Below, piece after piece: positions 7,237 to 9,789 of a stretch of 44,887 bases of DNA. Under the pieces are notes generated by a model. It saw only the letters and a program-made list of their open reading frames with translations, ran no database searches and had not been told where the DNA came from. The DNA lies in the NCBI GenBank assembly GCA_028713655.1, contig JAQTNW010000027.1, forward strand, positions 1 to 44,887, read 5' to 3'. Each line of letters starts with the position of its first letter. Within the stretch, counting starts at the first letter, position 1. Source of the stretch: Candidatus Methylacidiphilales bacterium. Its GTDB lineage: Bacteria > Verrucomicrobiota > Verrucomicrobiia > Methylacidiphilales > JAAUTS01. A program made the position numbers and the translations under genes.

Positions 7237-8622
7237 CTAGCGCCAGGTTTCCCTCCACGCTTGAAATTCTGCGGGACGAAGGCGGTAACGGGCAATGTTA
7301 CCCTCATGCAGGCTGCTTAATTCCGTCTCTACAATCTCAACAAAGCGCGGTTGGTCAGGGGCCGGAATCAAGGCGTCCGCGCTGCCTGCAATCCATTTGA
7401 CAGCGGCAGTTTTGTTTTTTCCGCCGCGCACCACCTCCGCAACCACATTGCGGATCTGTGTCCGGTACTTCAACCGGAACATGTCCGGCTCACCCAGGGA
7501 CTGGCATACGGCCGAATAGCGGGCGCACGAGCGCTCGTAGGCCCACAGAAACACGTCCCGCAAATACTCAACGCGGTTCAATTCATACACCCCGAGGATA
7601 CCGTTGACATAGTCATCCTTCGGCACATCCACAAACGAAAGCGGGCAAAGATTGCGCAGCACCAGCGGAATATTGGCCGCAAGGCGTGAAACTCGCTTAT
7701 TCACATCCTCGAACGGCTGCAGATACGGAATATGAACCATAACAAAAAATGCCTGTTCGAAGGCGTTTTGGATTTGCGCCGCTTTATCCAGCACAAGCTG
7801 GAAATGGTCTTCTATCATCTGCGGCTGCTCCAGAGGATGATAGACAGTTCCGGAAATGCCTACTGGATTGGCGCGCAACCTTCCCGCAGCGTTTGGATTT
7901 TGCAGCAGATTGTCCGCGAGCAATGCGTGCAGATTGAACAACGTATAGCGGTTGAAGCCGATTTCGTCCGCCTGTTCCGCCAGCAATTCGATTGCGGCCT
8001 TGTGGTTTAAAATCATTTGGGCTTCTTTTGCGTTCCGTCCTTCCGCGTTTTCGCCCAAAGCCAGAAGCCGTTCGGTTTCCAGCAATGAATACGTGTTGCC
8101 TTCGAGCCGACTCGAATTCCATGACAGGTCTATGAGCAGGCGATCCAGCACCTTTCGGAAATGGGTGCCCGCAGGCTGTGGCGCTCCCGTCGCCTGCCCC
8201 AGGGCTGCAAGCCTCGAAAGATGCTCCGGCAAAAGATAGGCTGAAGCATTCGGGCGGTATTTTTCCAAAAAAGAGGCCTGATACCCAATCGGACGCCGGT
8301 TTGATAATGGGCGCATTATGCTCCGGAAGATATTGCTTGCTGCGGATGAAAGCGGCAGTTCACTGCGTTTTATTTCCGCAGGTTGTTCCTTGACAGTTAA
8401 GCCGGAAGAAATTTCATTGAGGCGGTAGCGCCGCCCCCGCTGCTGTCCTTGCGGCGACAACCGGCCTTGCTTCACGAGCGCAGCTAGACGTCGCTGCAAA
8501 GTCCGCCGGGGCACCTGCCCGGACAGCAGTGCTTCAGCCTGTTCGATTGAAATGGGATCCAACACGTTCCGAAATACTTCCAGAACGGGGAGCAAATCAC
8601 TTTCCGTGATGATTTTTGGCAT
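7237..8622 (-). CDS. Fic-family protein with N-terminal winged helix and variant Fic motif
   Basis: Residues 1-70 form a winged-helix DNA-binding domain (LSGQVPRRTLQRRLAALVKQ). The Fic core follows. An inhibitory helix motif S170-x3-E174-G175 sits inside WNSSRLEGNTY, so this looks like a class II self-inhibited Fic. The active loop reads QPFEDVNKR at 302-310, where canonical Fic has HPFxxGNGR: the catalytic His is Gln and the loop ends in NKR, as in Doc. From memory this LQPFEDVNKR form recurs in a subfamily of bacterial Fic proteins. Canonical AMPylation is therefore uncertain. A C-terminal wing (residues about 400-461) is unassigned. The upstream operator array at 8634-8720 suggests autoregulation. 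Confidence 0.82.
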   Translation of the reverse strand: MPKIITESDLLPVLEVFRNVLDPISIEQAEALLSGQVPRRTLQRRLAALVKQGRLSPQGQQRGRRYRLNEISSGLTVKEQPAEIKRSELPLSSAASNIFRSIMRPLSNRRPIGYQASFLEKYRPNASAYLLPEHLSRLAALGQATGAPQPAGTHFRKVLDRLLIDLSWNSSRLEGNTYSLLETERLLALGENAEGRNAKEAQMILNHKAAIELLAEQADEIGFNRYTLFNLHALLADNLLQNPNAAGRLRANPVGISGTVYHPLEQPQMIEDHFQLVLDKAAQIQNAFEQAFFVMVHIPYLQPFEDVNKRVSRLAANIPLVLRNLCPLSFVDVPKDDYVNGILGVYELNRVEYLRDVFLWAYERSCARYSAVCQSLGEPDMFRLKYRTQIRNVVAEVVRGGKNKTAAVKWIAGSADALIPAPDQPRFVEIVETELSSLHEGNIARYRLRPAEFQAWRETWR

Positions 8623-8633
8623 TCCGCTTTATT

Positions 8634-8720
8634 ATGGCGCAAAACATAAAATACGCCATATAAATCTAATATAATGCCATAAAATTCATTTATACGCCAT
8701 ATAGATAATTTATATGGCGT
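8634..8720. promoter_or_regulatory. Operator-like array upstream of the Fic gene
   Basis: Several copies of ACGCCATATA or its core GCCAT occur in an AT-rich stretch: forward copies at 8653-8662, 8675-8681 (partial) and 8694-8703, and reverse copies at 8634-8639 (partial) and 8711-8720. The copies at 8694 and 8711 form a perfect inverted repeat with 10-bp arms and a 7-bp spacer. The GCCAT cores of the three forward copies start at 8655, 8676 and 8696, about two helical turns apart. This is what a cooperative repressor site looks like, and the winged helix of the adjacent Fic protein is the natural candidate binder. The copy nearest the gene lies 12 bp before its ATG. Confidence 0.7.
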
Positions 8721-8751
8721 GTAAATGGTGTTTTGTCGTAGTAAGTCTATT

Positions 8752-9789
8752 TTATGCGCCAAATACGTACTCAAACAGCTTGTCGTCCGTGTGGTATTCC
8801 AACACATGGCGTCGTGCGGCTACCGACATGGCATGTAGCGCGGTTTTGTCTGCCAGCGCCTGCTTGGCCACGCGCTTTAAGTCATCTCCCTCGACTCCGT
8901 AATAAAAGGCATGCACACGGTCGATCAGGGGTCGGTATCGCAAGATGCGGGGATAATTGATCAATGGGACGGCTCCAACCATGCAGGCTTCATAATGGCG
9001 ATGGCAATCCCAGCCATGCCCTTCGGGAGACCAGACAAGCCAGGAGCGCGCACATTTTTCAAGAAATTCCTTCCGGGGGATTCCCCGGCCCAGAATGATC
9101 TCCACGGCAAACCCTTCCCTGCGTAGTTCCTCCAATAATTTTACTCCGGTTTCCCGGGACATTTCGCCCTTGCAGGTTCCAATGAAGAGAATATCGATGT
9201 CCTTGGGCGAACTTGGATCGATGGATCTGGCCGCTTCGTCATATTTCAGCCCCAATGAGATGGGTTTGATTTTCGCATGATTTTTCCGGAACACTTCCGT
9301 TTTTCGGACAGCCGAGGTGTCTTCCATACGTCCGGTTGTGAACATAAAACCATTTTCGATTTTTACAGGCATTTCACGCCAGTAATATGTACGGCATTTT
9401 TTCAACAAGCCGAAAAACTGGGGTGGAATCAACGCGGGATCATCCTTTCGATCCACCACAATCAGCGGAACAGATGTTCCCTGCACCAACCCTAGGATGA
9501 TCCAGGGGCCGAAAGCGTGAAATCGTCCGCAGCAACAGCGGAGGATTTGAATAAGATTGGAGATCGCATTTCGTTCGCGCCGCCAGGGAGTACTGCAAAT
9601 GCCGTAAAAGGATGCCACGACCACATCATACTCTCCGCAGGCCAACTTTCGCTTCAACCCGCAAAAAAGGCGGAAGGTCATGTTGGTTGCGTCCGGGGCT
9701 TTTTTCCCGATCTGGTAATAATCGACTTGGGATGGGCGGATCTGCTTGAAATAAGAGCCTGCGCCGATCTCCAAAATCCGGATTTTCAT
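8752..9789 (-). CDS. Glycosyltransferase, Glyco_trans_1_2/exostosin-like family (copy 1 of 3)
   Basis: The 345-aa protein has a GT-B-like layout. Its hallmark WSPEGHGWDCHRHYEACMVG (253-272), followed by AVPLINYP, matches the nucleotide-sugar-binding end of Glyco_trans_1_2 enzymes. A second motif, PLIVVDRKDD at 108-117, is shared with the proteins at 15020-16096 and 34588-35715, so these three are paralogues. It sits 36 nt after the GT2 gene on the same strand and is probably cotranscribed with it. Donor and acceptor sugars cannot be deduced. Predicted location is cytoplasmic or membrane-peripheral. Confidence 0.75.
   Translation of the reverse strand: MKIRILEIGAGSYFKQIRPSQVDYYQIGKKAPDATNMTFRLFCGLKRKLACGEYDVVVASFYGICSTPWRRERNAISNLIQILRCCCGRFHAFGPWIILGLVQGTSVPLIVVDRKDDPALIPPQFFGLLKKCRTYYWREMPVKIENGFMFTTGRMEDTSAVRKTEVFRKNHAKIKPISLGLKYDEAARSIDPSSPKDIDILFIGTCKGEMSRETGVKLLEELRREGFAVEIILGRGIPRKEFLEKCARSWLVWSPEGHGWDCHRHYEACMVGAVPLINYPRILRYRPLIDRVHAFYYGVEGDDLKRVAKQALADKTALHAMSVAARRHVLEYHTDDKLFEYVFGA

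Follow-up and report, generated by a model that had tools for sequence, protein, structure and literature searches.

In the Phd-Doc system, a Fic-fold protein is likewise linked to self-regulated repeats, and the NKR motif of the protein described here resembles Doc; unlike this single gene, Phd-Doc comprises two genes, its antitoxin is the partner that binds DNA, and Doc has the catalytic His. The CccR protein of Yersinia pseudotuberculosis uses inverted repeats to repress its own promoter (PMC9755527), and WYL-domain regulators co-localise with diverse phage defence systems (PMC9122601). A bacterial Fic clade in which the catalytic His is replaced by Gln was catalogued in 2015 as D2, with the consensus Qx[FY]x[DE][GV]NKR; the clade description in that census leaves its function open, among proteins with functions 'yet to be identified' (Khater and Mohanty, PMC4454073).

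The window analyzed here, a stretch of 44,887 nucleotides from a Candidatus Methylacidiphilales bacterium, carries on its reverse strand a gene for a Fic protein of the Gln type (7237-8622, ATG start, 461 amino acids), identified from the list of open reading frames and Pfam. Membership of the Fic family (PF02661) is indicated by a match over residues 224-318 (E 1.7e-9) and by the fold match to FICD, and a search of NCBIfam with the protein assigned no family. The gene lies inside an envelope-polysaccharide cluster (4147-36786), most genes of which encode glycosyltransferases, heptosyltransferases, FkbM methyltransferases and an ABC transporter, a placement that is probably incidental.

An AlphaFold2 model (mean pLDDT 88.9, pTM 0.66), built from an alignment without the plasmid loci, orders the protein as a winged helix-turn-helix (wHTH; residues 1-68, 8419-8622), a disordered linker, the Fic core and, at the C-terminus, a helical domain (residues 381-459, 7246-7482). 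The predicted wHTH has helices at residues 7-18, 26-32 and 39-51, the last being the predicted recognition helix (8470-8508), followed by wing strands at 55-58 and 65-68. The winged helix noticed in a preliminary description of this DNA is thus borne out by the prediction, and a three-helix HTH with a wing, together with an operator suggested by covariation, would be in keeping with a wHTH regulator. Comparison of the model with VIA-align gave FICD (Z 25.1, rmsd 2.6 over 236 residues), SoFic (Z 21.9) and Coxiella Fic2 (Z 20.3), the two latter matches reaching into the C-terminal helical domain. On this model, the protein has the fold of the self-inhibited (class II) Fic proteins, whose motif (S/T)xxxE(G/N), N-terminal to the Fic core, is present as S170-S-R-L-E174-G175-N (8098-8115 for S170 to G175). 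No solved structure of a Gln-type Fic was recognised by sequence search, the loop motif having been read for part of the PDB matches.

The active-site loop reads Q302-P-F-E-D-V-N-K-R310 (7693-7719), with Gln in place of the catalytic His, and conforms to the D2 consensus, in a comparison made by motif and not by the published tree. Both this loop and the retained S-x3-EG inhibitory helix had been pointed out from the sequence before, and both extend to the relatives. Scanning of genome contigs with a single sequence gave no matches, whereas an alignment-based profile recovered at least 581 relatives, and 80 loci from among these were retained; tblastn matches that span 80% or more of the query are present in 26 plasmid records, and viral contigs contributed 11 relatives. 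By record title, the relatives belong to the Verrucomicrobia, Proteobacteria, Nitrospirae, Bacteroidetes and Chlamydiae, and full-length members share 45-62% identity. Their loops read QPFxD[VIGA]NKR, with some QAF or QGF. Among 135 aligned members Q302, F304, D306, N308, K309, R313, S170, E174, G175, N176, N206 and H207 never vary and R310 differs once, while the Gly of the anion loop is mostly Val. The canonical motif of AMP-transferring Fic proteins, HxFx(D/E)GN(G/K)R, is therefore not found with its His, as position 302 is Gln in 135 of 135. Part of this set was found with a pattern containing Gln; Gln is also present in members found with another pattern, with tblastn and with the profile, including QAF, QGF and QTF readings. 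Residues 206-208 (N-H-K), in the helix that follows the inhibitory motif, are near-invariant, with the N and H invariant, and a role as replacement catalytic or ligand residues is possible.

The invariant loss of the His suggests that the protein may not be an AMP transferase, as the preliminary description had also supposed. Strict conservation of D306, N308, K309, R310, R313 and E174 could on the other hand reflect a retained enzymatic activity. The protein would then be an AMPylase, another NMP transferase or a de-AMPylase that uses the Gln or, for example, the invariant H207, with its activity controlled by DNA binding, as reported for Coxiella CbFic2, which is stimulated by DNA (PMC10628234). 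Such an enzyme would account for the invariance of H207 and of all other active-site residues, and in its clade description the census also suspects that the clade is not dead (PMC4454073). We nevertheless consider it unlikely, as known Fic proteins that lose the His are inactive or have greatly reduced activity and the Gly of the anion loop is mostly replaced in the Gln-type relatives.

The intergenic region ahead of the gene (8623-8751), the putative operator and promoter region, has a G+C content of 29%, compared to 55% for the window. On the forward strand the half-site ACGCCATATA is located at 8653-8662 and 8694-8703, both by inspection and in the pattern search of the genome, and inspection adds a weaker half-site, ATGCCATAAA, at 8674-8683. 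The site at 8694-8703 forms the left arm of a palindrome, of which the right arm at 8711-8720 carries ACGCCATATA on the reverse strand and reads TATATGGCGT, its exact reverse complement. The forward GCCAT cores at 8655, 8676 and 8696 and the perfect 10-bp inverted repeat, on which the preliminary description was built, are all correctly placed. Two members can be added by inspection: a copy in the reverse orientation, TTGCGCCATA, at 8633-8642, which is forward on the gene strand, and a forward core, GCGCCAAAT, at 8756-8764, an uncertain outlying half-site at the 3' end of the upstream gene. The palindrome is also larger than described, with 20-nt arms at 8687-8706 and 8708-8727 that are 90% complementary. 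Relative to the ATG and on the gene strand, the half-sites lie at about -134(-), -98(+), -72(-), -53(-), -31(-) and -18(+); two more matches, at -211 and -190, fall within the upstream gene and may be due to chance. A simple scan found no sigma-70-type promoter at this locus. On the forward strand, opposite to that of the gene, the palindrome (8686-8728) is in addition scored as a hairpin resembling an intrinsic terminator.

Arrays of the same geometry precede the relatives. In the 230 bp upstream of the gene, the commonest 9-mer, counted de novo on both strands with one mismatch allowed, occurs on average 4.18 times in 103 relatives, compared to 2.48 in controls from the same loci and 2.25 in shuffled sequences. 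As a side observation, one control stretch outside the upstream region contains a single 9-mer 17 times in 230 bp (L123), possibly a tandem or CRISPR-like array. At least two half-sites of the recognised classes (GCGCCA, GCGACA, GTGCCA, TTGCGCxTA or the CTGCGCCA type) are present within 230 bp upstream in 95 of the 103 relatives, for a total of 456 sites and a mean of 4.8 per locus. Their spacing shows sharp peaks, at 19-21 bp for tandem, 18 and 26-27 bp for convergent and 13-15 bp for divergent pairs. These preferred spacings hold 233 of 337 adjacent pairs (69%), against 8% by random placement, in windows that were picked after inspection of the data, and the fraction is equal in two halves of the loci; the site patterns, the spacing windows and the specificity rule discussed below were all set on the first loci. 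The sites are concentrated in the final 115 bp or so ahead of the start codon. TATAAT-like words occur in the last 75 bp upstream at 47 of 97 loci and further out at 7 of 97, a weak signal in view of a difference in base composition, and at several loci a half-site runs into a -10-like word.

Repeats at a spacing of about 20 bp resemble iterons and some homologues are plasmid-borne, so that the array might belong to another regulator or to a function of a plasmid or mobile element, with the Fic gene merely adjacent. We regard this as highly improbable, since the arrays accompany the gene in several phyla, amid unrelated neighbours, and their sequence tracks the recognition helix of the Gln-type protein itself. 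An iteron or replication function was rejected, as arrays accompany the gene on chromosomes and plasmids alike.

The type of operator switches many times on a tree derived from the Fic part alone. When operator type is compared at matched Fic identity, the three best-tracking of the 461 columns are 47, 44 and 39, all within the predicted recognition helix. Y44 is found at 13 of 13 loci called as TTGCGCxTA and at none of those called as another type; N38 or a non-basic residue 39 goes with GCGACA as opposed to GCGCCA, a rule that fits 67 of 71 loci and with which, in eight independent tree pairs, 7.4 agree on average and none is opposed; and K39 together with D or N at position 47 goes with GTGCCA. 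The 38/39/44/47 rule was frozen after fitting and applied to 28 new loci, 7 of which have no callable known operator; it predicted 17 of the other 21 operators, where always guessing the commonest type gives 12 (permutation p 1.5e-5, a value that overstates independence, as these loci are mostly from the phylum of the window and some are near training loci). When blocks of 15 residues are compared, one that lies outside the helix (about 178-192) follows operator type just as closely as the block containing the helix, and relatedness therefore still contributes to the tracking. Taken together, the comparison of sequences strongly supports that the operator changes along with the recognition helix, as would be expected from self-recognition. 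The earlier proposal that the protein binds DNA and regulates its own gene, from sites some two helical turns apart, thus gains support from the array geometry of the relatives and from the helix covariation. As for its expectation that homologues would be preceded by like sequences, the geometry is shared and the core covaries with the helix, but ACGCCATATA itself is not conserved; the proposal's own refuting condition, unrelated sequences ahead of the homologues, was thus examined and did not overturn it.

Within genomes, the operator appears to be private to the gene. In the 3.29-Mb genome of the window, CGCCATA-N4-24-TATGGCG occurs only at 8695-8719, and ACGCCATATARAT, with at most one mismatch, gives three operator sites and one site elsewhere, the reversed control also giving one; the array thus stands well above chance. 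In each of the four genomes that were pattern-searched, the operator pair or palindrome is found only at the gene itself, and these patterns detected no regulon there. One genome encodes two paralogues (L167 and L178) that differ both in the recognition helix and in the repeats upstream, which would fit an avoidance of cross-talk; a further locus, L173, is a near twin of L178.

More distant Gln-type proteins of about 300-390 amino acids (YIQPFxDGNKR) with an N-terminal wHTH are preceded by arrays of other sequences (GCGGCTCA, AATCGGTCGG, ATCGTATCA, ATCGTTTCA and TTGTTGCG). A repeat score of at least 4 is reached in 15 of 16 new or distant Gln-type loci, and the exception (L160) has neither a wHTH nor an array. 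For 22 Fic proteins with His from the phylum of the window, the mean of 2.86 is near background and three reach 4 or more. Five distant loci (L117, L193, L196, L198 and L199) have TGCGGCTCA palindromes upstream, near a TATAAT word, and form a second operator family with the helix S-x-A-T-V-K-R. Further operator types (AATCGGTCGG, ATCGTATCA and AATCGTTTCA) are seen at L192, L194 and L197, at L195, L202 and L203, and at L152 and L154.

Our data suggest that the Gln-type Fic protein is very probably a DNA-binding switch on its own promoter, and we consider it likely that it is a dedicated cooperative autorepressor, with a Fic pocket that serves as a ligand sensor or has a non-canonical activity. 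The N-terminal winged helix would bind the array ahead of its own gene, with several copies of the protein positioned at the fixed distances given above for divergent, convergent and tandem pairs; the bound copies would cover the promoter and repress it, resulting in a self-limiting switch made of a single gene. The Fic domain has lost its general base and retains the Mg/phosphate residues and the inhibitory Glu, and its pocket most likely senses a nucleotide-like ligand, or performs a non-canonical reaction, altering oligomerisation or DNA binding. Comparison between relatives argues strongly for the wHTH, the conserved array and self-recognition; repression rather than activation, cooperativity and ligand sensing are inferred. 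Repression through promoter occupancy, as shown for CccR, would be the likeliest mode, given the clustering of sites near the start, the TATAAT-like words and, at several loci, the overlap of a half-site with the -10-like word.

Autoregulatory arrays also look like the operators of toxin-antitoxin systems, and the gene could encode a fused module of that kind. Its wHTH and inhibitory helix would then serve as antitoxin and repressor, and its Gln-type Fic domain as a toxin or defence effector capable of non-canonical transfer, to be released or derepressed by a trigger such as entry of a phage or plasmid. The invariant E174 would fit, as would the patchy distribution of the genes, often on plasmids or prophage-like contigs or beside HsdR, SIR2-like or AAA genes, and weak PADLOC matches to SoFic and PDC-S04. 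We find this possible but rather doubtful, since the catalytic base is invariantly lost, defence genes are absent from the neighbourhood of most loci, and no partner gene is conserved. The largest cluster of neighbours covers 9 loci and mixes HsdR and transposase-like reading frames, and the upstream neighbour has no preferred strand (46 versus 44). An adjacent antitoxin gene, as in type II systems such as FicTA and Phd-Doc, is likewise not seen, no neighbour being conserved. As named from reading of the sequences, an HsdR-like type I restriction gene begins a few bases past the fic stop codon at three loci (L029, L037, L083), and a SIR2-like (L013) or AAA/TOPRIM-like gene (L003) lies directly downstream at two others. 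At four more (L067, L100, L101, L110), the gene adjoins a common set of phage-like genes that probably belong to a Mu-like prophage.

The autorepressor reading may extend to the whole Gln-type clade as widespread single-gene switches. Ligand sensing would then have become the task of the active site, while the winged helix, by means of a short recognition code that can evolve, would read a self-operator array private to each protein, so that co-resident copies act without cross-talk; we put this forward tentatively, leaning slightly against it in so general a form. For most Gln-type proteins, the comparative evidence offers a specific role that can be tested, and part of a DNA-recognition code that relates positions 38, 39, 44 and 47 to the operator sequence. 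If correct, uses of the Fic fold would extend from enzymes to dedicated regulators, the clade would supply a natural set of orthogonal self-repressors, and the annotation 'Fic family protein', which implies AMPylation, would mislead for these genes.

Neither upstream arrays nor a role in DNA binding turned up for the Gln clade in a search of the open-access literature, with most subscription papers outside it. The upstream arrays and the covariation of operator and recognition helix are new here; the Gln clade itself has been known since 2015. We know of no self-operator array for SoFic or Coxiella CbFic2. These proteins share the class II Fic fold, the inhibitory helix and an HTH, but have the His and a C-terminal HTH (PMC10628234), whereas the wHTH of the window protein is N-terminal. 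Clade D2 shares the replacement of His by Gln, its bacterial distribution and the consensus Qx[FY]x[DE][GV]NKR; its clade description presents proteins that are usually single-domain and possibly active, and reports no winged helix or operator array (PMC4454073). Regulators of phage defence islands with a WYL domain similarly combine a wHTH with a sensor domain (PMC9122601), but the sensor is WYL instead of Fic, and Gln-type genes are only occasionally near defence genes. The closest functional precedent is CccR, which also joins a Fic domain to an N-terminal inhibitory helix and a DNA-binding domain; it differs in that its HTH is C-terminal and its catalytic His is present, in contrast to the N-terminal wHTH and absent His found here, in that it AMPylates FtsZ and is a T6SS effector, and in that its operator is a single pair of 10-bp repeats 26 bp apart (PMC9755527), where the Gln-type genes have an array.
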